NCBI RefSeq assembly: GCF_008000995.1
Contig: NZ_CP042828.1
Span: forward strand, 4,826,882 to 4,890,881
Length of the DNA stretch: 64,000 bases
DNA from: Ruania zhangjianzhongii
GTDB taxonomy: Bacteria > Actinomycetota > Actinomycetes > Actinomycetales > Beutenbergiaceae
Direction of reading: 5' to 3'
This document shows positions 19,480 to 64,000 of this stretch, piece after piece; position 1 is the first letter of the stretch, and each line of letters opens with the position of its first letter. The notes below the pieces were generated by a model. That model had not been told where the DNA came from. It did no database searches and worked only from the letters and a program-made list of their open reading frames with translations. A program made the translations under genes and the position numbers.

Positions 19480-20232
19480 TCAGAACAGCAGGTAGACGGC
19501 ACCGACGACGGTGAGCAGGATGATCAGCCGGTCGAACAGTGTCTGGTTCATCTTCGTGACCAGGGCGCGCCCGGCAAGGGCGCCGGCCACCACGGCCGGC
19601 ACCAGCACGGCGTTCACCAGCAAGGTCTGCTCGGTGATCAGCCCGAGGCCGACCGAGAAGGGCACCTTCACCAGGTTGACCACGGCATAGAACCAGGCTG
19701 CCGTACCGAGAAACGTCTTCATCGAGAACCGGGAGGCGAGGAAGTACATCGACATCACCGGCCCCGCGGCGTTCGCCACCATCGTGGTGAAACCGCCGAG
19801 CGTGCCGTAGACCCCGGCCTGCACGTGCTCCCTGCGCTTGCTGATCGGACGGTCGCCACTCTTGCGTGTGGTGTACCGGCGCACCAGGGTCATCGCGATC
19901 ACCAGGAGCAGGATCACGCCGATCACTCGGCGTACCCCGGCATCGGAGGCGAGGGCCAGGAACAACGCCCCAGCAACCAGTCCGGCGACCACTGTCGGCA
20001 CCAGCCGCCGCAGCACCTGCCAGTCGGCGTGCTTCCGGTAGGCCCAGACAGCGAACGCGTCGCCGACGATCAGCAGCACCAGCAGGGCACCGGTGGACTC
20101 CTTGGCGGGCAGCAGGGCAGCAAAGATCGCCACCGAGATGGTGTTCGAGCCGGGGAGGGCGGTCTTGGAGATGCCGACGAGGAGTGCGGCGAACGCCATC
20201 AGTGTCCAGGCGAGCGCACTGAGGTCGGGCAT
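19480..20232 (-). CDS. TauE/SafE-family anion permease
   Basis: 250 residues, about eight TM helices in the two-half TauE/SafE (sulfite exporter/DUF81) arrangement. Repeat signatures: LVGISKTALPGSNTISVAIFAALLP in helix 1 and GTLGGFTTMVANAAGPVMSMYFL in the second half. The family moves sulfite, sulfoacetate or other organosulfur anions. That would suit the sulfonate-degrading operon at the far end of the window, but the 35-kb distance gives no real link. The ATG at 20232 lies seven bases after TAGCGT. Confidence 0.88.
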   Translation of the reverse strand: MPDLSALAWTLMAFAALLVGISKTALPGSNTISVAIFAALLPAKESTGALLVLLIVGDAFAVWAYRKHADWQVLRRLVPTVVAGLVAGALFLALASDAGVRRVIGVILLLVIAMTLVRRYTTRKSGDRPISKRREHVQAGVYGTLGGFTTMVANAAGPVMSMYFLASRFSMKTFLGTAAWFYAVVNLVKVPFSVGLGLITEQTLLVNAVLVPAVVAGALAGRALVTKMNQTLFDRLIILLTVVGAVYLLF

Positions 20233-20239
20233 ACCGGCC

Positions 20240-20245
20240 ACGCTA
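20240..20245 (-). promoter_or_regulatory. Leaderless -10 box of the TauE gene
   Basis: The minus strand reads TAGCGT, seven bases, then ATG at 20232. Confidence 0.5.
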
Positions 20246-20291
20246 ACGACGGCGGAGGGCGGGCGCCGCTCGTTTCCACCAGTTGGCACGG

Positions 20292-20329
20292 GCTCGGCGG
20301 GGCGGTGCAGGTGCCGCACCCCGCCGAGC
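20292..20329. terminator. Hairpin downstream of the GH109/secreted-protein operon
   Basis: An 11-bp GC stem (20292-20302 with 20319-20329) lies about 40 bp after the stop of the minus-strand secreted-protein gene. No T-run follows. Confidence 0.55.
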
Positions 20330-20375
20330 GCAGTGGTCGCCTCAGAGCCCACCGAGCGCAGTGGTCGCCTCAGAG
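20325..20375. repeat. Two direct copies of a 23-bp sequence
   Basis: CGAGCGCAGTGGTCGCCTCA plus three more identical bases occurs at 20325-20347 and 20353-20375. The second copy runs into the 3' end of the secreted-protein gene, encoding its last residues; it looks like a recent tandem duplication. Confidence 0.75.
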
Positions 20376-52811: not shown

Positions 52812-54749
52812 GTGGCGACCAACAAGCGAACGGACTCCGAGGACCCCTCGACATCTCAGCAGGCGGAACCGGACGGTAACGGCGCCGCCGGCGGACTGAC
52901 CGGCGCCGATGACGGTCTGCCGGAGTCCGTCCACCTCCCGCGGAAGATGCAGATCCACGACGAGGACAGCGACGAGGCGATCACCGCCAAGCTCCGCCAC
53001 CATGGGGTGCGGATCGGCAAGGGACTGGTGGCGCCGCGCGTGTTCTGGCCCGCACTCATCCTGGTCATCGCTGTGGTGGTGTTCGCGCTCATCGCCCCGG
53101 CTGTGACCGACACGGTCTTCACGGGGATGAACAACTGGATCGTCGCCAGCCTCGGCTGGTACTACATGGTGGCGGTCGGCGTGTTCGTCGTCGTGGCGAT
53201 CGGCATCGGCGTCTCGAGGATGGGCAAGATCCGCCTCGGCCGGGATGACGAGAAGCCCGAGTTCGGCCTGATGTCCTGGTTCGCGATGTTGTTCGCCGCC
53301 GGTATGGGCATCGGCCTGGTGTTCTACAGCGTGGGCGAGCCGCTCGGCTACATCACCACCGACATCAAGCCCGGCTGGGAGGGGAGCGAGGCGGACATCG
53401 CCGGCCTGGCGATGGCGCAGACCTTCATCCACTGGGGTCTGCACCCGTGGGCGATCTACGCCATCATCGGGCTCGGACTTGCCTATGCGATCCACCGCAG
53501 GGGCCGACCGGTCTCGATCCGGTGGGCACTCGAACCCCTGCTCGGCGATCGGGTGAAGGGCTGGATGGGCGATCTGATCGACGTCCTCGCGGTCGTCGGC
53601 ACCCTGTTCGGGATCGCCACCTCGCTGGGCCTGGGGGTGCAGCAGATCTCCTCGGGAATGGCCGCGATGGGGGTCGTGGAGGAATCGAGCAACACGCTGC
53701 TGGTCGTGCTCATCGTGGTGATCAGTTTCCTGGCCACGCTGTCGGTGGTCAGCGGTGTGGGCGCGGGTATCAAGTGGCTCTCGAACATCAACCTCTCATT
53801 GGCCGGGTTACTGCTGATCAGTGTGCTGCTGCTCGGGCCCACCATCTTCCTGCTCCAGAACCTGGTGGAGTCGCTCGGGGTGTACCTGGCGAACCTGATG
53901 AGCATGACGTTCGATGTCGGCGCGTACCAGCGCGGTGAGGGAGCTGCCGGCTGGTTCTCGAAGTGGACGATCTTCTACTGGGGTTGGTGGATCTCCTGGT
54001 CACCGTTCGTCGGTGTGTTCATTGCCCGGATCTCCCGGGGCCGCACCATCCGGCAGTTCATCGCCGGCGTGCTGCTGGTGCCGACGATCGTGGGCTTCGT
54101 GTGGTTCTCGGTGCTCGGCGGGGCAGGGCTGTTCCTGCAGATGTTCACCGGCACCGACCTCACCGAGGGCAACCTGAACGAGGACGGCTTCCTGGTCGCC
54201 GAGAGTGTCCTGTTCGACGTCCTCGGCTCCCTGCCGCTCGGCACGGTGTTCTCGGTGATCGCGATCTTCCTGGTGGCGATCTTCTTCATCACCTCCTCCG
54301 ACTCCGGCTCGCTGGTGGTGGACATGCTCGCCTCTGGCGGGCATCCGAACCCACCCACCTGGTCCCGGGTGCTCTTCGCCCTGCTCGAGGGCGCCATCGC
54401 CATCGCCCTGCTACTCACTCCGGGTGGTCTGGGCTCGCTGCAGGCGGCGGCGCTGGCCACGGCATTGCCGTTCAGCGTGATCCTGTTGCTGATGTGCTGG
54501 GCGAACATCCGCGCACTGCAGGTTGATCACCGGGTTCGAGAACGCGACGAGATGCTGGCACGGCTGGACCGGGTCACCGACCACGTGACCGAGGAGGTCA
54601 CCGCGGACTTCTCCCGGTACCCGAAGCTGGAGACGTTTGTGGATGACCGGATCGACTACCGGATCTCCCGCACCCGGAACCCGTTGACCAAGGCGAGCCG
54701 GGCTGCTCGAGCGGCTGGCCGAGCCGGTGAGGGGCCTGACGGCGGCTGA
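52812..54749 (+). CDS. BCCT-family betaine/choline/carnitine transporter (BetP-like)
   Basis: 645 residues, 12 TM helices plus long charged N- and C-terminal tails. The Gly-rich substrate helix is FAAGMGIGLVFYSVGEP and the family signature is WGWWISWSPFVGVFIARISRGRTIRQF. GMGIG is the sodium-coupled betaine form of this motif. The charged tail (DHVTEEVTADFSRY and later basic residues) suggests osmosensing as in BetP. It would take up glycine betaine for salt protection. GTG start; no clear ribosome-binding site. Confidence 0.94.
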   Translation: MATNKRTDSEDPSTSQQAEPDGNGAAGGLTGADDGLPESVHLPRKMQIHDEDSDEAITAKLRHHGVRIGKGLVAPRVFWPALILVIAVVVFALIAPAVTDTVFTGMNNWIVASLGWYYMVAVGVFVVVAIGIGVSRMGKIRLGRDDEKPEFGLMSWFAMLFAAGMGIGLVFYSVGEPLGYITTDIKPGWEGSEADIAGLAMAQTFIHWGLHPWAIYAIIGLGLAYAIHRRGRPVSIRWALEPLLGDRVKGWMGDLIDVLAVVGTLFGIATSLGLGVQQISSGMAAMGVVEESSNTLLVVLIVVISFLATLSVVSGVGAGIKWLSNINLSLAGLLLISVLLLGPTIFLLQNLVESLGVYLANLMSMTFDVGAYQRGEGAAGWFSKWTIFYWGWWISWSPFVGVFIARISRGRTIRQFIAGVLLVPTIVGFVWFSVLGGAGLFLQMFTGTDLTEGNLNEDGFLVAESVLFDVLGSLPLGTVFSVIAIFLVAIFFITSSDSGSLVVDMLASGGHPNPPTWSRVLFALLEGAIAIALLLTPGGLGSLQAAALATALPFSVILLLMCWANIRALQVDHRVRERDEMLARLDRVTDHVTEEVTADFSRYPKLETFVDDRIDYRISRTRNPLTKASRAARAAGRAGEGPDGG

Positions 54750-55703: not shown

Positions 55704-58025
55704 TCAGCTGTGCCGGACCACCGTGGGGTGCACCTGCTGCGCCCCGTCCACCTGCACCTCGGTGCCCCGAACCTGCACCCGCAACGTTCCGCCGTCGAAA
55801 TCGGTCAGCTCCAGGTCAGCATTCGCAGCACCGTACGCGTGCATCACCCACGGCCGGCCGACCAGCTCGTCGGTGTTGCGCACCTCGGCGCCGACCTCGA
55901 CCCTGGGCAGCACGGTGCCGGTCCGAACCAGCACCGGCATCTGCTCCAGCCCCACCGTGCGGCTGTGGAAGCCCGGGCCGGTCACCACCGAGCCGTCCAG
56001 GATGTCCACCCATTCCCCCGCGGGAACGTAGAACCGTCGGGTCACCGGCGCGGTGCCGTCGTCCAGGACCGGCACCACCAGCAGGTCCTCCCCGAGCAGG
56101 AACTGATCGTCGATTCCGGCCGCGAACGGATCCGTCGGGAACTCCAGCGCCAACGGCCGCAGCATAGGCAGTCCGGCGGCCGCCGAACGGTGCGCGGCCT
56201 GCCAGAGGTAGGGCAGCAGCTCATACCGCAGCCTGATCCAGTCCCGGCAGATCGCCAGCGCCTGCTCACCGAACTGCCACGGCTCCCGCGGCCGCAGCCC
56301 GTGTGCGCGCATCAGCGGGGACAGCGCCCCCAGCTGGGTCCAGCGCACGTACAGACCCGGGGTGAGCTCGGGCCCGAAGAACCCGCCGATGTCGTGGCTC
56401 CAGAAGCCGGGGGCGCTCAGCGCGTAGGACAGTCCGCCGCGCAGCGTCGCCTGCAGCCCGGCGACGGTGGACTCCGCGTCCCCGCCCCACTGGCCCGGAT
56501 AACGGTGTGAGCCGGCCCAGCCACTCCTCCCCCAGACCAGCGGTGCGCGGCCGGTGTGAGCGCCGAGGTGCTCGCTGACGGCGCGGTTGTACAGCAGCGG
56601 GTACAGATTGTGGGCGTGCACGGCCGGGGTGCCGTCGGCGAGGGCAGCATCGTCGGGAAGACCTTCACCGAAGTCGGTCTTGAACACGGCGACGCCGTCG
56701 TCGAGAAAGTCGTCGTGCAGGTGCTGCCACCAGCTCCGGGCCGCCGGGTTGGTGAAGTCGATCAGCGCCCGGTGGCGGCCGTCCGGGGTCGGCGTACCGG
56801 CCACTTCGGCGATCTGCCCCGCGGCGTCACGAACCAGGTAGCCCGCCTCCGCCGCTTCGGCGTACCGCGGGGAGTGCGGGTCGAGGTAGGGCAGCTCCCA
56901 GATCGAGAGCCGGCAGCCCTGCTCCCGCAGCGCAGCGACGAACTCGGCCCGGTCGCCGAACCGGTCGGTGTTCCAGATGAAGTCGGTGTTCAGCCGGTCG
57001 ACCACCAGCCAGTCCGGGTCCAGGTGCAGCACATCGCAGGGCACCTCGTGCTGACGCATCGACCGCGCGACGTCGAGCATCTCCTCGGCCGAGTGGTACC
57101 GGCAGCGGCCCATCCAGTAGCCGAACGCCCACAGCGGCGGTACCGGGGCACGGCCGGTGATCTCGGTGTACTCCCTCAGCCGCTCCCGAGGGTCCTGCCC
57201 GGCGGTGAGCACCAGGTCAAGCTCGCCACCAGGCACCTGCAGGCTGAGCACCGAGGCACGCTCGTGACCCACGTCCGCCACCACCTGGGCGCCGGTGTTC
57301 AACAGTGCCGTGTACCCGGCAGTGGAGTGCCAGACCGGCACCGGCTTGTAGGCGCGTCCGGTACCGGTGCCGAGGGCATCCTCAGCGCGCAGCACCAGCT
57401 GCTGCCCGTTCTTGACCAGCCGGGAGAACTGCTCACCGAACCCGGTGATGTCCTCCTCGGCGGCCAGTTCCGCCTGCAGCTGCACCTGCCCGCCGTGCCA
57501 CAGCACCGGCGGTGCCATCGGGAAGCCGGCCACCTGGCGCAGCCGCTCGGCGGTGCGCAGCACCCGGCGCCCGGCGGAGTCGAATGCTTGCAGAGAGAAC
57601 GGCTGGCGATGGATCTCCAGCCGGATCATGCCGCAGTCGATCTCCACCCGGTCCTCGTGCTCGGTGACCTGCGGGGCGCGTTCCTCCTCAGCCGTGACGA
57701 TCCCGAGCCAGCCGGCCTCCTCGCCGAGGACGCGGGCACCGGCCGGGGCGATCACCACCCGCGCGCTGCCGCTGCCGAGGGCACTGACCCGCATCTCGGC
57801 GCGCTGGGACTCCAGCGGCGGCAGCTGCAGCCCACGGGGCAGGTTCGGCATCTCGGTCTCGATGCCCTGGTCGGCCATCGACTCCCCGGTGAGCCAGCCC
57901 GGAGTACCCGGCAGGCTGACCGCCCGCAGCGCCTGCAGACCGATCCGGACTGCGCCGGGCTCCGTCGTCACCTCGGTGACCGACCGGAGGAGGTACGCCT
58001 GCTGAGCGTCCATCCCGGTGCTCAC
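55704..58025 (-). CDS. Glycoside hydrolase family 31 (alpha-glycosidase), last gene of the sulfoglycolysis operon
   Basis: 773 residues. The GH31 barrel has the nucleophile Asp in VAVFKTDFGEGLPDD (near 450) and the acid/base Asp in PGQWGGDAES (near 515), plus FWSHDIGGFFGPE. N-terminal beta-sandwich and C-terminal beta domains are complete. Overall it recalls alpha-xylosidase YicI more than sulfoquinovosidase YihQ, but its operon suggests the natural substrate is a sulfoquinovoside such as sulfoquinovosyl glycerol. No signal peptide, so it acts on imported glycosides. The GTG at 58025 overlaps the permease stop (GTGA); ATG 58013 is an alternative. Confidence 0.9.
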   Translation of the reverse strand: MSTGMDAQQAYLLRSVTEVTTEPGAVRIGLQALRAVSLPGTPGWLTGESMADQGIETEMPNLPRGLQLPPLESQRAEMRVSALGSGSARVVIAPAGARVLGEEAGWLGIVTAEEERAPQVTEHEDRVEIDCGMIRLEIHRQPFSLQAFDSAGRRVLRTAERLRQVAGFPMAPPVLWHGGQVQLQAELAAEEDITGFGEQFSRLVKNGQQLVLRAEDALGTGTGRAYKPVPVWHSTAGYTALLNTGAQVVADVGHERASVLSLQVPGGELDLVLTAGQDPRERLREYTEITGRAPVPPLWAFGYWMGRCRYHSAEEMLDVARSMRQHEVPCDVLHLDPDWLVVDRLNTDFIWNTDRFGDRAEFVAALREQGCRLSIWELPYLDPHSPRYAEAAEAGYLVRDAAGQIAEVAGTPTPDGRHRALIDFTNPAARSWWQHLHDDFLDDGVAVFKTDFGEGLPDDAALADGTPAVHAHNLYPLLYNRAVSEHLGAHTGRAPLVWGRSGWAGSHRYPGQWGGDAESTVAGLQATLRGGLSYALSAPGFWSHDIGGFFGPELTPGLYVRWTQLGALSPLMRAHGLRPREPWQFGEQALAICRDWIRLRYELLPYLWQAAHRSAAAGLPMLRPLALEFPTDPFAAGIDDQFLLGEDLLVVPVLDDGTAPVTRRFYVPAGEWVDILDGSVVTGPGFHSRTVGLEQMPVLVRTGTVLPRVEVGAEVRNTDELVGRPWVMHAYGAANADLELTDFDGGTLRVQVRGTEVQVDGAQQVHPTVVRHS

Positions 58026-58837
58026 CCCTTCACCGCGCCCGCGGTGATCCCGGCGACGAAGTGCCGTTGCAGCAGGACGTAGCCGATCACCACCGGCAGG
58101 GAGGCGATCACCACTCCGGTGAACAGCAGCGGATAGTCGGTGAGGAACTGTCCCTGGAAGTCCAGCAGTGCCAGCGGGATCGTCTTCTTCCCCGGGGAGC
58201 TGATGAACAGCAGCGGATAGAGCAGGTCGTTCCACTGGATCACGAACAGGAAGATCGCGGTGGCCGCGATCGACGGCGTCGACATCGGCATCACGATCGA
58301 CCAGTAGGTGCGCACCGGGCCGGCACCGTCCACCGAGCTCGCCTCATAGGTCTCCCGCGGCAAGGTGCGCATGAACCCGGCGAGGATGAACACTGCCACC
58401 GGCAGCCCGACGACGATATTGATCAGCACCAGGCCAAGCCGGGAGTCGAGCAGCCCGAGCTGGTCGAACAGCACGTACTGCGGAATCATGTTCGCCTGCG
58501 GCGGCACGGACATGCCGAGCACCAGGAAGCCGAAGATCAGCCAGCCCTTCCAGCCCGGGATCCGTGCGACGGCGTACGCCGCGAGGCTACCGATCAGCAG
58601 GGTGAGCAGCACTGACGCGCCAGTGACCAGCACGCTGTTCAGAAAGGCCTGCCGCAGGTTCTGCTGATTCAGCACCACGTCATAGTTCTCGAACGAGATC
58701 GAGGACGGCAGCCCGAACGGGGAGTCGAACAGCTCCGGGGTGGTCTTGAAGGACCCGAAGATCACCACTGTCACCGGCACGATGATCAGCACTGCGTAGA
58801 CGGCGAGGACGGCACCGCGGCCGAGCTGGTAGCGCAT
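58022..58837 (-). CDS. Carbohydrate ABC transporter permease (MalG-type)
   Basis: 271 residues, six TM helices. The EAA loop that docks on the ATPase is PRETYEASSVDGAGPVRTYWSIVMPM. It pairs with the MalF-type permease upstream (10-bp gap). No ATPase gene is in the operon; a shared MsiK/UgpC-like ATPase encoded elsewhere is usual in actinobacteria. ATG 58837 follows GGAGG; the extension to 59020 lies in the upstream gene. Confidence 0.93.
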   Translation of the reverse strand: MRYQLGRGAVLAVYAVLIIVPVTVVIFGSFKTTPELFDSPFGLPSSISFENYDVVLNQQNLRQAFLNSVLVTGASVLLTLLIGSLAAYAVARIPGWKGWLIFGFLVLGMSVPPQANMIPQYVLFDQLGLLDSRLGLVLINIVVGLPVAVFILAGFMRTLPRETYEASSVDGAGPVRTYWSIVMPMSTPSIAATAIFLFVIQWNDLLYPLLFISSPGKKTIPLALLDFQGQFLTDYPLLFTGVVIASLPVVIGYVLLQRHFVAGITAGAVKG

Positions 58838-58847
58838 CGAGGCCTCC

Positions 58848-59810
58848 TCAGGCTTCCTTCTGGGTGAGCTTGAGCATCCGCCGCTGCACCACCACGATCG
58901 CCGCGATGAACAGCATGAAGATGATCGACTGGGTGGCGGCGTAGCCGAACTCGGAGTTGGCGAAGGTGCTGTAGATCCGGGTGGACAGGATGTCCAGGCT
59001 GGTCTTCGGCGGGTTACCACCCAGACCCAGGATCAAGTCGAAAGCCTTGAAGGATTGGATGGTGGTGTAGGCGACGACGATGGCGGTCGCCGGGGCGAGC
59101 ATCGGCCAGGTGATCGCGGTGAACTGCTTCCACCGGCCGGCACCGTCGATCTCCGCTGCTTCGTACAGCTCCCGCGGTACGGCCTGCAGCCCGGCGATGA
59201 AGATGACCATCATCTGCCCGGCGTGGAACCACACCTGCGTGATCGCCACCCAGTAGATCGCTGCCTCGTCGTTGCCGAGGTAGGAGCTGGTCAGCGCGTC
59301 CAGCCCGACCGCCTCCAGCACCCGGTTTCCCAGGCCGAAGTTCGGGTCGTAGATGAACTTGAAGATGTAGGCGACCGACACCGACGACAGGATCGTCGGG
59401 AAGAAGAACAGGCCACGCAGCAGCGTCGACCCGCGGGTGTTCCGGACCAGGAAGATCGCCAGGATCAGTGCCAGGATCGTCTGGAACACCACCACGACGA
59501 CCATGAACTTCAAGTTGTTGGTCAGCGCGTTGAGGAACAGCGTGTCACCGGTGAGCAGGCGGTCGAAGTTGCCGATACCGACGTTCTCGTAGTCGGCGCT
59601 GAACCCGTCCCAGTCGGTGGCCGAGTACTGCACTGCCTGCAGGGTCGGGATGACGAAGAAGATCACGTAGATGATCAACGCCGGCAGCGTGAAGGCATAC
59701 AGCAGCGGGTGCACCCGCGAGGAGGGGCCGCGGCGCCGGCGCCGGGGGCGTTCTGGCCGGCCCCCGGTGCCGGCACCGGTAGCGGTGGTGGCGCTGGCTG
59801 GTGTGCTCAT
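58848..59810 (-). CDS. Carbohydrate ABC transporter permease (MalF-type)
   Basis: 320 residues. Basic N-terminus (RPERPRRRRRGPSSRVHP), then six TM helices; EAA loop VPRELYEAAEIDGAGRWKQFTAITWPML. It forms the channel with the MalG-type partner for the sugar delivered by the lipoprotein at 59875-61176. Starts 64 bp after the binding-protein stop. Confidence 0.93.
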   Translation of the reverse strand: MSTPASATTATGAGTGGRPERPRRRRRGPSSRVHPLLYAFTLPALIIYVIFFVIPTLQAVQYSATDWDGFSADYENVGIGNFDRLLTGDTLFLNALTNNLKFMVVVVVFQTILALILAIFLVRNTRGSTLLRGLFFFPTILSSVSVAYIFKFIYDPNFGLGNRVLEAVGLDALTSSYLGNDEAAIYWVAITQVWFHAGQMMVIFIAGLQAVPRELYEAAEIDGAGRWKQFTAITWPMLAPATAIVVAYTTIQSFKAFDLILGLGGNPPKTSLDILSTRIYSTFANSEFGYAATQSIIFMLFIAAIVVVQRRMLKLTQKEA

Positions 59811-59874
59811 GCGTCGCTCTTTCGCCAGAAGTGAGATCGCAGAAGGGGCGCCAGGGGCGCCGCTTCGGCAATGC

Positions 59875-61176
59875 TCAGGCGTTCACCCGTTCGTCGATGA
59901 TCTGCTGCGCCCGCTCGGCCGCCTGCTCCGGGGAGGTGCCGCCGACCACGTCGATACAGGACTGCTCGGCGGCGTTGCGGATGTCCAGGTCGTTGAACTG
60001 GAACCGCGGGGCGAGCATGGTGTCCTTGTCCAGCCAGTCGGCGGTGGCGGCCAGGTCCTCGTTCTCATAGTTCACCTCGGCCACGGTGAGGTGCTGGGCG
60101 GTGCCGTTGGCGTAGGTGCTGGCGTGCTCGGTCTCGCTGAGGTACTCCAGCAGTGCCATCGCCGTGGCCTGGTTGTCCGAGGCACTGTTCACCCCGAGGA
60201 CGAAGGTGGCGTTGTGGATGCCCACGTACTTCGCCTCGTCCGCGGACACGGTGATCGGAGCCATCATGCCGACCGGGAACTCGGCCCCGAGGGCACGCAC
60301 AGCGGCGATGTGGAACGAGCCGGTCAGCAACAGGGCGGCGTCTCCGGAGGAGAACATCTGCTGTGCCGGCTCCACGGCGGTGCCGGTCGCGTTGTTCTGG
60401 AAGTACGGCCGCAGCTCGACGTACTGGTCCAGCGTGTGCAGGAACCAGTCGTCGGTGCACTTGTACTCACCGGACTCGATCTTGGCGCACATATCGTCGC
60501 TGGGGGCGTTGTTCATCATCATGCAGTTGAACAGGTGGCCGGCGTTGCCGATCTCCCCACCGGGCCAGGCCATCGGGATCTTGTCGATGGACAGGATGTC
60601 CTCGCACATCGACAGCCATCCGTCCCAGTCCGGCGGCGGCTCGGAGATACCGGCCTCCTCCAGGACGTCGAGGTTGGACACCGGCTGGTTGAACACCAGC
60701 TGGTACGGCAGCCCGTACTGCGTCCCGTCCTGCGCGCCGGCCTCGATCAGCGAGGGGTTGTACTTGCCGACCACATCGGTGCCGGACAGGTCGGCGTACA
60801 GCCCGGCGCTGACCATGTCCACGAACTGCGCGCCACGGAAGGCCACGAACAGGTCGCCGATGTTCCCGCTGCGGATCTGCTGCAGCGCGCTGGACTGGTA
60901 GTCGTTCGAGGGCGAGATGTCCTGGCGGACAGTAGCGCCGTCGTTCTCGGCGGAGAAGGACTCGATGATCTCCGCGAGCACCTCCTGGTCCTCAGCACGC
61001 CAGTGCGCGAACGAGATCTCACCGCCGATCTCACCATCGCCTCCGCCGGTGTCCGGTGGTTCGTCGCCACCGCCCCCGGATCCGGGCCCGGCGCAGGCCG
61101 CGACGGCGGCGAGCAGCCCACCGCCTCCGAACACGTGCAGGGCGCCTCGGCGGGACAGGTTGAACTTCTCACTCAT
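59875..61176 (-). CDS. Carbohydrate ABC transporter solute-binding lipoprotein
   Basis: 433 residues. Signal LSRRGALHVFGGGGLLAAVAAC with lipobox Cys28 and possibly Tat-dependent (SRRGAL). The mature protein is a family-1 (MalE-like) binding protein: ISFAHWRAEDQEVLAEIIESF, LPYQLVFNQPVSNLD, LLLTGSFHIAAVRAL. By context it would bind sulfoquinovose or sulfoquinovosyl glycerol; similarity to the SmoF group was not testable here. ATG 61176 has AAAGGAG upstream. 25 bp after the isomerase stop. Confidence 0.92.
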   Translation of the reverse strand: MSEKFNLSRRGALHVFGGGGLLAAVAACAGPGSGGGGDEPPDTGGGDGEIGGEISFAHWRAEDQEVLAEIIESFSAENDGATVRQDISPSNDYQSSALQQIRSGNIGDLFVAFRGAQFVDMVSAGLYADLSGTDVVGKYNPSLIEAGAQDGTQYGLPYQLVFNQPVSNLDVLEEAGISEPPPDWDGWLSMCEDILSIDKIPMAWPGGEIGNAGHLFNCMMMNNAPSDDMCAKIESGEYKCTDDWFLHTLDQYVELRPYFQNNATGTAVEPAQQMFSSGDAALLLTGSFHIAAVRALGAEFPVGMMAPITVSADEAKYVGIHNATFVLGVNSASDNQATAMALLEYLSETEHASTYANGTAQHLTVAEVNYENEDLAATADWLDKDTMLAPRFQFNDLDIRNAAEQSCIDVVGGTSPEQAAERAQQIIDERVNA

Positions 61177-61201
61177 CGGGTTCTCCTTTGAACGGGCTTG
61201 G

Positions 61202-62596
61202 TCACCATTCGATGACCGGGATACGGAGCTGGTCAGCGGCGGCGCGCAGGCCTGGGCGGACATCCGTCCAGGCCAGCACGGTGTGGTGCGGGAAGCCGCC
61301 GGCAACCAGTCCGTCGATGAACTCGGTCGCGTCGGCGTCCAGCACGACGTCGGCACTGTTGCCCTGGAACCGGTTCGGTGCCGGGATCGAGGTGCCGGAG
61401 GCGATCAGCAGGCGCAGACCGCCGGTCTCGTTGTCCTCGGTGAGCCGGGCGGCGATCACCGGACCGGTGCGCAGCGGGAAGTTTCCCGCCACACCGATCT
61501 TGCGGTTGCAGTGCACATACTGGGTGGCCTCAGCCGGGTCGGCAGCCAACTCGGTGGCGGCTGCACCGCAGTGCCAGAACCGGACCAGGTTCCGGTCAGC
61601 CTCCAGGTCGACGGTGTCGGCCAGGTAGGTCATCCCCGCACCGAGCTCGGCGAGCAGCAGCATGGTCGCCGCGCCGTAGACGTCGCGTTCGCACTGGGTG
61701 GGGATGCCGTCATCGGCCACCCGGGACAACGAGGAGCACGGGCACACCCCGCGCTGGGTGGGGAACTCCGGCCAGCAGCGCACTGCCACCGAATCGAGCC
61801 GGTCCTCGCCGATCCAGTCGCGCAGCGCCGTCGTGACCGCCGCGTGGCCGGCCACCTCGTCGCTGTCCAGTGCCGTGAGCGAGGGTTGTGCCGCACTGGC
61901 GGCCGCGACCTCGGCCACCTGCCGCTCGGCCGGGACGGCATCGATCCGGGCGAAGACCTCCGCCATGGTCAGTGGCTGAGCCGTCAGGCCGAAGTAGTCC
62001 TCGAGCAGCGCCGGGTCGTACTCGCTCGGGGTGAAACCCGGCGGGGCGTCGCCGACCACGCCGATCGTGCGTCCTCGCAACCGGGTGAGTGCCTCCGCGG
62101 CTGCCGCCGGATCGCCGCGCTCCCGGGCGGAGGTCGGCAGCTCGGGTGCCGCCGGCAGCCGCCCGGCCAGCACCTCCTGCAGCTTCTGGCGCACGGCCGG
62201 TTCGTCCGCTTCGCCATAGACCAGTCGGGCCTGGCGGCCGAGGCGGGCGAGGGCGTGCCCGAACAGGTTGGTGCCGCACAGCGAGTTCAGCCAGAGCTTG
62301 TCGCCCACCGGGCCGGGTTCGCGGAAGGCCCAGAGCAGCACCGGCTGCTCCAGGTCCGCATACAACGCCAGGGCTGGACCGGCGTCGGAGAACGAGGCGC
62401 ACACGTGCACCACCTGATCCGCACCGTCCAGGTACGGTCGGGCCGCCTCGACATCCTCGGGGGTCATCACCAGCTCTTCGGGGCCGACCACCTCAGCACC
62501 GAGCTCGGTCAACAGCGCCCGGGCGGCGCGCGCCCGGTCCCGGGCGACGTCCACGACGAAGGTGGGGCGCGCCGTCGCGATCATCGCAATCCGCAT
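61202..62596 (-). CDS. L-fucose/L-arabinose-isomerase-like protein, candidate sulfoquinovose isomerase
   Basis: 464 residues. Metal-dependent aldose-ketose isomerase fold. Characteristic pieces: HVCASFSDAGPALALY (N-terminal domain), RCWPEFPTQRGVCPCSSLSRVADDG and YLADTVDLEADRNLVRFWHCGAAATELA, where PEF, VDLEAD and the HCG His (near residue 341) sit where FucI has its metal ligands. Placed between a YihT-like aldolase and the transporter, it would convert sulfoquinovose to sulfofructose. ATG 62596 has GGGGAGG upstream; GTG 62605 would overlap the aldolase stop. Function is inferred from context. Confidence 0.85.
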   Translation of the reverse strand: MRIAMIATARPTFVVDVARDRARAARALLTELGAEVVGPEELVMTPEDVEAARPYLDGADQVVHVCASFSDAGPALALYADLEQPVLLWAFREPGPVGDKLWLNSLCGTNLFGHALARLGRQARLVYGEADEPAVRQKLQEVLAGRLPAAPELPTSARERGDPAAAAEALTRLRGRTIGVVGDAPPGFTPSEYDPALLEDYFGLTAQPLTMAEVFARIDAVPAERQVAEVAAASAAQPSLTALDSDEVAGHAAVTTALRDWIGEDRLDSVAVRCWPEFPTQRGVCPCSSLSRVADDGIPTQCERDVYGAATMLLLAELGAGMTYLADTVDLEADRNLVRFWHCGAAATELAADPAEATQYVHCNRKIGVAGNFPLRTGPVIAARLTEDNETGGLRLLIASGTSIPAPNRFQGNSADVVLDADATEFIDGLVAGGFPHHTVLAWTDVRPGLRAAADQLRIPVIEW

Positions 62597-62601
62597 CCGG
62601 G

Positions 62602-63489
62602 TCACCTCCCCACCACAGTGTCGACGAGGTCGCCGAGCCGGCGCAGCCGATCGACGGCGGCAGTGCGCAGCTCGTGGGCGACATCGGGTTTGCCGATGCA
62701 CGAGGCCCAGACCGCTCGTCCGGCGAGGAACCCGGCGGCACCGGCCCGGCAAGCGGTCTCGACCGCCGTCGGAAAGACGTCCTCGCGCACGCCGCTGGAG
62801 AGCACCACCCAGGGCGAGTCGACAGTCGCGGTGATCTGTTCACATCGGCGGGCCACCTCGACGGCGGGTCCCTCCCCGTGCAGCGGAATCTCCGCCTTGT
62901 ACAGGTCGGCGCCGAGGGAGCCGAGCTCCTCGGCAGCGGCGAGCACACCGGCATCCCAGTCCCAGTCGCCACCGCCCAGCGGTGATCGGGAGACCGGTTC
63001 GACGATGCTGATCAGTCCGGCGCCGCGGCACAGCCGGACGAACTCCTCGACCATCTCGACCCGCTCCGCGCCCCCACCGTCCGGCCGGTAGAGGACGAGC
63101 AGCTTCAGCGCCACCGCACCCTGCGTCCGCGCAGTCTGCGGGTCCACCTCGCGGTCGATCGTCACCCGGCCGACCACCTCGCCGTAGGCGGCCTCGAAAT
63201 GGTCCGCAGAAGCGATCAGCCCACATCCCGGTGCCACTGCCTGCTGCGCCACTACCTGCTCCCAGGCGAACTGCCGGTCCACCAGCATGGCGGAGGCATA
63301 GGGGCTGAGCGCACGCGCCGCCTCGAGCTTGAACTCGGTGAGAGCGGCGTCCGGCACCGCTGAGTCGGTGTGCTCGGCGAACATGTTCCGTAGCGCCTCG
63401 CGCTGGTCGATCGCCACCATCGCGAACGCCCCGGACGGGCGTTGCAGGGCGGACAGGTCGACGGGCTCGACCGCGTTCGCGGTGCTCAT
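62602..63489 (-). CDS. Class I aldolase, YihT-like sulfofructose-1-phosphate aldolase
   Basis: 295 residues, LacD/DeoC-type TIM barrel. It closely follows E. coli YihT as I remember it: GAFAMVAIDQREALRNMF, TEFKLEAARALSPYASAMLVD, ALKLLVLYRPDG, ISIVEPV, GADLYKAEIPL with the Schiff-base Lys (near 198), VVLSSGV and GAAGFLAGRAVWAS. It splits sulfofructose-1-phosphate to dihydroxyacetone phosphate and sulfolactaldehyde. Overlaps the kinase stop by ATGA. The nearest alternative, tagatose-bisphosphate aldolase, fits less well. Confidence 0.88.
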   Translation of the reverse strand: MSTANAVEPVDLSALQRPSGAFAMVAIDQREALRNMFAEHTDSAVPDAALTEFKLEAARALSPYASAMLVDRQFAWEQVVAQQAVAPGCGLIASADHFEAAYGEVVGRVTIDREVDPQTARTQGAVALKLLVLYRPDGGGAERVEMVEEFVRLCRGAGLISIVEPVSRSPLGGGDWDWDAGVLAAAEELGSLGADLYKAEIPLHGEGPAVEVARRCEQITATVDSPWVVLSSGVREDVFPTAVETACRAGAAGFLAGRAVWASCIGKPDVAHELRTAAVDRLRRLGDLVDTVVGR

Positions 63490-64000
63490 CTGGCCTCCTC
63501 GGCTCGGTGGGCCGGGCGCAGCTCGGGCCGAGCTGCCAGTACCTCGGCTGGTGTCGGAATTGCAGATCGTCCGTCTACTCCGCGGCAGGACAGTGCGGCC
63601 ACGACGCTTGCCCAGGAGACCGCGTGCGCGAGCTCGGTGGTGGTGACGTCGGTGGGACGGTGGCCGGCGAGCGCGGCGAGCAACCCGCCGTGGAAGACGT
63701 CGCCGGCACCGAGGGTGCTCAGGGCGTCCACCCGGTGCGCGGGCAGGTGCTCAGCGGTGCCGTCGGCGACGAACCAGGCACCCTGGGCGCCGTCCGTGGC
63801 CACGACGGCATGTGCGCCGTCCGCTCGAGCAGCAGCCAGGAGATCGGGCACCGGCCGGTCGCCGTACCGCTGGGCCAGGGAGGCCACAGTGGGTGCGTAC
63901 AGGTCCACTCCGCCGGGGGTGAAGCCGTCGATGCCGTAACCGTCGTCGATGGACAGCCCCGGGCGGTCCTGGGTGGGCAACATGGCGAGGTGGGCCAGCA
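63486..64000 (-). CDS. PfkB-family carbohydrate kinase (3' part), candidate sulfofructose kinase
   Basis: The C-terminal 170 residues of a ribokinase-fold sugar kinase; the start lies beyond the window. The catalytic motif is STLGAGDVFHGGLLAAL with the general-base Asp, and VATDGAQGAWFV is the strand before it. GDVFHG and the ending CRGVDGRSAIPT resemble YihV (GDVFHG, RPGGRAGIP as I remember it), which phosphorylates sulfofructose. Coupled to the aldolase gene by ATGA, in a pathway order kinase-aldolase-isomerase. The N-terminus and any upstream regulator or sulfolactaldehyde-converting enzyme cannot be seen. Confidence 0.88.
   Translation of the reverse strand, partial: LAHLAMLPTQDRPGLSIDDGYGIDGFTPGGVDLYAPTVASLAQRYGDRPVPDLLAAARADGAHAVVATDGAQGAWFVADGTAEHLPAHRVDALSTLGAGDVFHGGLLAALAGHRPTDVTTTELAHAVSWASVVAALSCRGVDGRSAIPTPAEVLAARPELRPAHRAEEAR

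Follow-up and report, generated by a model that had tools for sequence, protein, structure and literature searches.

The 64,000 nucleotides of the Ruania zhangjianzhongii genome analysed here (the window; positions 4826882-4890881 of contig C2, in a genome of 5.1 Mb and two contigs) end in a seven-gene operon on the minus strand which, according to the explanation that we consider best and quite probable, imports sulfoquinovose, a sulfur-bearing sugar from the sulfolipids of plants, and breaks it down. The pathway would be a hybrid of two forms of the sulfoglycolytic Embden-Meyerhof-Parnas pathway (sulfo-EMP and sulfo-EMP2), and judged by its sequence the operon is of a hybrid type already reported in Actinobacteria. 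Every reaction, substrate and transport direction proposed below we infer from gene content, homology, the predicted fold of the isomerase and synteny, and it is synteny on which our confidence in sulfoquinovose rests.

The operon is real and not a chance arrangement, because its core gene order is found again in actinobacterial relatives with isomerases 49-89% identical to that of the window. Its genes encode a PfkB-family kinase similar to YihV (63486..64000 for the C-terminal part; the gene extends beyond the window to about 64433, its start if its ATG is used), a class I aldolase of the DeoC/LacD family similar to the sulfofructose-1-phosphate aldolase YihT (62602..63489), an SftI/SqvD-like isomerase (61202..62605), a sugar-binding lipoprotein of an ATP-binding cassette (ABC) transporter (59875..61176; Pfam SBP_bac_1 and SBP_bac_8, lipobox-like AVAAC by eye), ABC permease 1 (58848..59810), ABC permease 2 (58022..58837; both Pfam BPD_transp_1) and a YicI-like glycosidase of glycoside hydrolase family 31 (GH31; 55704..58025), a candidate sulfoquinovoside hydrolase. 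The whole kinase sequence was taken from the host genome, in which the same locus was read past the window (locus L003, whose positions plus 53118 give those of the window). A first-pass annotation of the window had described seven co-directional genes with ATGA/GTGA couplings and predicted import by an ABC system. The first is confirmed and the second supported: all seven genes lie on the minus strand, with 4-base overlaps at three of the six junctions (kinase/aldolase, ATGA; aldolase/isomerase and permease 2/GH31, GTGA) and gaps of 25, 64 and 10 bases at the others. No ABC ATPase gene is present within the operon.

The three best matches of the aldolase among solved structures are YihT-type enzymes (279-289 bits, with 289 for 7AG1), and the next family follows at 53 bits. 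The protein shares 49% identity with YihT, as expected from its earlier description as YihT-like, and the lysine at YihT position 193, presumably the Schiff-base residue, is retained in 24 of 24 operon aldolases (operon copies are those of the syntenic actinobacterial loci, designated by L-numbers; G-numbers are genomes). NCBIfam returned only tagatose-bisphosphate aldolase models for it, and the top curated match is a tagatose model because no YihT model turned up in the library, not even with YihT as the query; YihT matches the same four models with similar scores. With NF009498 (cut-off 184), the window aldolase obtained 141.5 and E. coli YihT 137.1, in comparison with 327.6 and 316.6 for the LacD-type aldolases of L038 and L039. 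The structure scores and this comparison speak against a tagatose aldolase, and the grouping with tagatose aldolases that had been named beforehand as a reason to give up the assignment was not seen, judged by score rather than by a tree.

The best solved match of the kinase is the sulfofructose kinase 7AG6 (108 bits; the next reaches 83), which agrees with its prediction as a YihV-type enzyme; identity to YihV is 35%, and GAGD is kept. Its Pfam family is PF00294 (PfkB-type) and not the PfkA-type PF00365 of SqiK, and that of the aldolase is PF01791 (class I) and not the class II PF01116 of SqiA; plain sulfo-EMP2 was rejected on this ground.

The isomerase matches the NCBIfam model of the sulfoquinovose isomerase SftI (NF048012) with 283 bits (E 3e-84; model cut-off 700), and the host's own L-arabinose/fucose-type paralogue obtains 37 bits on the same model. 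A sequence search of solved structures at E up to 1 found no relative. An AlphaFold model (mean pLDDT, the predicted confidence per residue, of 90.5; alignment of 22 sequences) matched L-arabinose, D-arabinose and L-fucose isomerases at ranks 1-41 of the Protein Data Bank; TM-scores on the query were 0.50-0.57 and root-mean-square deviations large, so that the fold agrees and the placement of the domains differs. According to this model the protein has the AraA/FucI fold, as the first-pass annotation had supposed in speaking of a FucI-type isomerase; by sequence it is nearest to SftI/SqvD. A YihS-type isomerase (PF07221) is absent from the cluster. SftI corresponds to SqvD, and the two are handled as one function (PMC13219744).

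The operon is called a hybrid because an SqvD/SftI-like isomerase, scoring below the cut-off of its model, stands together with a kinase and an aldolase of the YihV/YihT type. Such combinations are known: Streptomyces sp. WMMB 322 has sqvD in place of yihS, csqR homologues lie near yihV and yihT in Actinobacteria, and the CsqR homologue of Ruania alkalisoli is placed at the root of the tree in the same paper (PMC10991401). Hybrids across Actinobacteria were also described from a network anchored on the dehydrogenase (PMC10599462), and a review states their existence, citing a 2023 paper (PMC12890257). The window operon resembles them in its SqvD-like isomerase and shares with them a YihV-type kinase, a YihT-type aldolase and a DeoR/CsqR-type regulator; it differs in having no adjacent dehydrogenase, exporter or lyase, a YicI-like GH31 and a divergent GH116 gene. 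With the yih cluster of E. coli (sulfo-EMP) it has the YihV- and YihT-like enzymes and a DeoR-type regulator in common, whereas the AraA/FucI-fold isomerase takes the place of YihS and ABC import that of YihO, and YihU, YihP, YihR and YihQ are missing from the operon. These two replacements had been pointed out in the first-pass annotation and stand. Its placing of sulfo-EMP2 in Arthrobacter is not supported, as the published clusters of strains AK01 and AK04 use YihS (PMC8873060). These actinobacterial sulfo-EMP systems resemble the window operon in ABC import and in the YihV and YihT homologues, but they are described with YihS and a dehydrogenase, and that of AK01 with a GH188 enzyme (PMC8873060, PMC10755693), all of which are absent from the window operon. 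The sulfo-EMP2 systems of Bacillus urumqiensis and Megamonas rupellensis have an SqvD-family isomerase, the family that the window isomerase resembles, but a PfkA-type kinase and a class II aldolase instead of the PfkB-type and class I enzymes found here.

In the proposed pathway, sulfoquinovose or one of its small glycosides would be imported by the lipoprotein and the two permeases, which probably rely on a shared ATPase, and intracellular cleavage of the glycoside by the GH31 enzyme would release the sugar. Sulfofructose would then be formed by the metal-type isomerase and sulfofructose-1-phosphate by the kinase, and the class I aldolase would cleave the latter into dihydroxyacetone phosphate and sulfolactaldehyde, with the divergent DeoR-family protein as the likely regulator. 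In many relatives sulfolactaldehyde would be oxidised to sulfolactate, which would either leave the cell or be split into pyruvate and sulfite; in the host, the sulfolactaldehyde step would have to be catalysed by an enzyme encoded elsewhere in the genome.

The genes attached to the operon in other genomes are what points to a sulfosugar, a question that the single enzymes do not settle. A single scan of genome contigs yielded 24 loci (L064, on a Lachnospiraceae contig and with 24% identity, was dropped); the scan loci, the window locus, L036 (G085) and L037 (G171) form a set of 26, some on short contigs. In this set the aldolase, the binding protein and each of the permeases are present in 24 loci, the kinase in 23 (L054 has no kinase match within its stretch) and a DeoR gene in 18. 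The accessory genes include GH31 (16 loci), a gene for a protein of the M24 (prolidase/creatinase/EutD) fold (19), a GabD-type dehydrogenase (15), a TauE exporter (13) and a Gfo/Idh/MocA gene (6); both dehydrogenase and exporter are added in 13 of the 26. GH31 and Gfo/Idh/MocA genes never co-occur, and neither is found in L055, L056, L060 and L063. In L048 the Gfo gene matches the structures 8QC3 and 8QC2 with 768 and 763 bits, and the remaining five are 44-79% identical to it (tblastn); both entries are GH188 sulfoquinovosidases (PMC10755693).

Furthermore, six of the 26 loci contain SuyA/SuyB-like genes: L043 (1933-3410, with an SlcC-like piece where its stretch ends) and, together with SlcC-/ComC-like genes, L044 (2219-6823), L057 (18280-21392), L058 (8436-11561), L059 (16685-19737, SuyB in two pieces) and L065 (16119-19136). 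For L057, L058, L059 and L065, uncultured actinobacteria that we take to be of freshwater origin, these assignments rest on Pfam for sample proteins and on tblastn for the rest; the sizes given for the metagenome-assembled genomes of L057 and L065 are 1.4 and 1.7 Mb. SuyB-like genes were called from their domain make-up and from comparison with homologues of Cupriavidus pinatubonensis and Paracoccus. The protein is 62% identical to that of a gene on a plasmid of C. pinatubonensis, the species in which SuyAB was identified (PMC12890257). The best plasmid matches are from Rhodococcus (74%), and their annotation, where there is one, reads UxaA family; the neighbours of the Paracoccus homologue (56%) are genes for a small UxaA subunit and for a putative sulfate exporter. 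TauE and SuyB never occur together, and L003, L042, L054, L036, L056, L060 and L063 have neither; for three of these seven (L036, L060 and L063) the sequence is truncated by the limit of the stretch or of the contig. On this evidence of synteny with sulfonate genes, sulfoquinovose, to which the first-pass annotation had tied the operon, remains the likely substrate.

Two further observations were made among these loci. In the M24-fold proteins (e.g., L061:16901-17953), the usual metal-binding Asp motifs look replaced by eye. A more remote actinobacterial locus, L038:6301-10631, may be a further hybrid: beside a LacD-type aldolase and a gene with 44% identity to the GH188-type one, it encodes a kinase similar to YihV (43%) and an isomerase similar to SftI.

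Trees were calculated for the isomerase and for the aldolase, each from 24 operon proteins and one outgroup. The window and its nearest relative found, Candidatus Ruania gallistercoris (L042, from genome G419; genome G413, a draft given as the same genus and as 92% complete, contains a contig that is L042 in reverse complement), are sisters in both trees with full or nearly full support, and their proteins are placed among those of loci with sulfonate genes. With midpoint rooting, YihT lands between the L057-L065 group and the rest; the outgroups being long branches, this placement leaves the deep branching order unsure.

The GH31 glycosidase had been noticed in the first pass, and its affiliation can now be given in more detail as YicI-like rather than YihQ-like. 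Its top curated NCBIfam model is that of the alpha-xylosidase YicI (459 bits, cut-off 606), and on the model matched by YihQ it obtains 228 bits (cut-off 553), compared with 1247 for YihQ itself. It belongs to the same family as the sulfoquinovosidase YihQ and shares with it the catalytic Asp pair, D405 and D472 of YihQ, conserved in 16 of 16 operon GH31s. Of the residues R301, W304, Y508 and Q288, presumably the signature of YihQ-type enzymes, the first is found as Arg in all 16; the Arg of this column is, however, non-specific and no proof of sulfonate binding, since the host paralogue L106 has it too.

A second GH31 gene of the host, far from the operon (L108:9764-12025; C2:689763-692021), is of the YihQ type: its best solved match is YihQ (362 bits), and it keeps Q288, R301, W304, Y508, D405 and D472. 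A hydrophobic stretch near its start looks by eye like an N-terminal membrane anchor. Among 24 genomes of the host's family, the operon isomerase was found in two (E up to 1e-60) and the YihQ-type enzyme in three (E up to 1e-80), i.e. in both genomes with the operon isomerase and in one of the 22 others (chance of about 0.011, calculated by hand and ignoring kinship); in G413 it is in two pieces at contig ends. Beside the YihQ-type gene of the host, a cluster (L108:192-8992) encodes an ABC ATPase and permease, a short-chain dehydrogenase/reductase, an enolase-superfamily protein, a YihS-like epimerase (PF07221; 36% identity to YihS), a Zn-dependent alcohol dehydrogenase, an RraA-like aldolase and a Gfo oxidoreductase, possibly for another sugar-acid pathway. 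Of these neighbours, only the alcohol dehydrogenase (41%) was seen beside the YihQ-type gene of G411.

The first-pass annotation had suggested reading beyond position 64000 for a regulator and for a sulfolactaldehyde reductase or dehydrogenase. The regulator is there: a DeoR-family gene, divergent from the kinase, adjoins it and ends outside the window, at position 65409 in window numbering. The enzyme is not, as the 8.6 kb beyond 64000 show neither a reductase nor a dehydrogenase of the kinds expected, and L003 has no match to either at E up to 1e-10. A GH116 glycosidase gene stands there instead (L003:12288-14750, window 65406-67868); it overlaps the DeoR gene by 4 bases, its product perhaps acts on a beta-linked glycoside, and it recurs in four of the 26 loci (L003, L042, L043 and L054), which do not form one clade in either best tree, though a single origin is still compatible with both. 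TauE exporter and SuyAB lyase genes are absent from the surroundings of the window operon. A TauE homologue elsewhere in the host (L077) is 42% identical to an operon exporter, inside the range among operon exporters themselves; with rhamnose and fucosidase genes as its neighbours by eye, it was set aside as the exporter, not excluded. Another TauE-family permease (window 19480-20352, minus strand) is weakly similar to operon exporters (28% over 119 residues).

Several findings weigh against sulfoquinovose as the substrate in Ruania. Of the YihV residues K27, N109 and R138, which we assume to bind the sulfonate, K27 is replaced by R in all 21 rows that could be read, the N of N109 is kept in two of 23, and R138 is unaligned; because these residues are not kept as such, the kinase alone is no proof of the substrate. 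The isomerase is far below the cut-off of the SftI model (283 versus 700), and W304 and Y508 of YihQ are absent from all 16 operon GH31s (column 304 is C or T, column 508 F). The best YihU match in the host (L079, 38%) adjoins an apparent glyoxylate carboligase gene and was rejected as sulfolactaldehyde reductase, its neighbours by eye being genes for glyoxylate carboligase, glycerate kinase and allantoinase. SuyAB genes were not found in 252 kb of host sequence (overlaps counted), the part of the genome searched for them. The dehydrogenase of the relatives has an orthologue in six of ten genomes tested (that of the query itself and five at 60-73% identity), but no close one in the window genome or in G419 of R. 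gallistercoris (43% at best in each). This gap is softened by the genomes of L057 and L065, which have no close orthologue either (40% and 38%) and yet possess SuyAB, and by at least one GabD-type member in the host genome (559 bits to the succinate-semialdehyde dehydrogenase model, cut-off 646); sulfolactaldehyde dehydrogenases are of the GabD type (PMC10599462). Two dehydrogenase arginines proposed to bind the sulfonate (PMC10599462) are kept in 15 of 15 dehydrogenases of the relatives and do not discriminate, since E. coli GabD has both. In the same ten genomes, the M24 gene is present in four (L061, L036, L057, L065) and absent from those of the window, L042, L043, L054, L044 and L056.

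These findings could be explained if R. zhangjianzhongii and R. gallistercoris had switched the operon to a sugar without sulfonate, e.g. 6-deoxyglucose or another 6-substituted glucoside, which the aldolase would cleave to dihydroxyacetone phosphate and lactaldehyde or a similar compound, leaving no sulfonate to be disposed of. Neither genome has a close orthologue of the dehydrogenase or the M24 gene (with R. gallistercoris as a draft), the GH31 is YicI-like, a GH116 gene has joined the locus, and the kinase pocket is unlike that of YihV, though it is so in all relatives. However, the GH116 gene is also present in L043, close to SuyA, SuyB and the dehydrogenase; the isomerase and aldolase of the pair group among those of loci with sulfonate genes; L057 and L065 lack a close dehydrogenase and still have SuyAB; and the YihQ-type enzyme accompanies the operon isomerase in both family genomes having it, versus one of 22 others. 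We therefore regard such a switch as rather unlikely.

Two other substrates can be derived from the curated models. The YicI model, top for GH31 although under its cut-off, would suggest an operon for alpha-xylosides or plant oligosaccharides, in which xylose would be freed, isomerised, phosphorylated at C1 and cleaved. This is very improbable, as Pro-Asp is found in all 16 operon GH31s at the position of the Cys-Phe pair of YicI, which we take to confer xyloside selectivity, the nearest kin of the aldolase and isomerase are sulfosugar enzymes, and a GH188-type gene replaces GH31 in six relatives. The aldolase models, all of them for tagatose bisphosphate, would suit an operon of the tagatose or galactose type whose aldolase is LacD, but YihT itself hits the same four similarly, on the best model the LacD-type aldolases from L038 and L039 reach over twice the score, and the solved structures favour YihT (289 versus 53 bits); by score, this is the least credible of the alternatives.

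Coming back to sulfoquinovose as the substrate, we tentatively suggest, as a possibility rather than an expectation, that the YicI-like GH31 may represent an additional type of sulfoquinovosidase that is exchangeable with GH188, and that the end of the pathway may be modular, with export by TauE, desulfonation in the same cell by SuyAB/SlcC/ComC-like enzymes, or another fate in Ruania. The M24-fold protein would then be an unrecognised part of the pathway.

As for the remaining surroundings, one stretch following the operon GH31 folds no better than its shuffles, and the plus strand close to the operon's end encodes a large membrane protein with the look, by eye, of a BCCT-type transporter (window 52812-54749).

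In the literature searched, neither the Ruania form nor an actinobacterial form linked to SuyAB is described; most subscription papers and all supplements lay outside this coverage, so that this is no proof of absence. What sets this copy apart is the absent last step beside the operon and the unusual glycosidase in an otherwise known hybrid type. Surveys demanding a clustered dehydrogenase or a YihQ-type enzyme can be expected to overlook the Ruania form. Sulfoquinovose ranks with the most abundant organosulfur compounds (PMC12890257), and who converts it to which C3 sulfonate, or to sulfite, bears on the sulfur cycle. The operon type is spread across many actinobacterial genera, and where import, sulfoglycolysis and SuyAB-like genes lie in one stretch, as in the six relatives, a single organism would release the sulfur completely.

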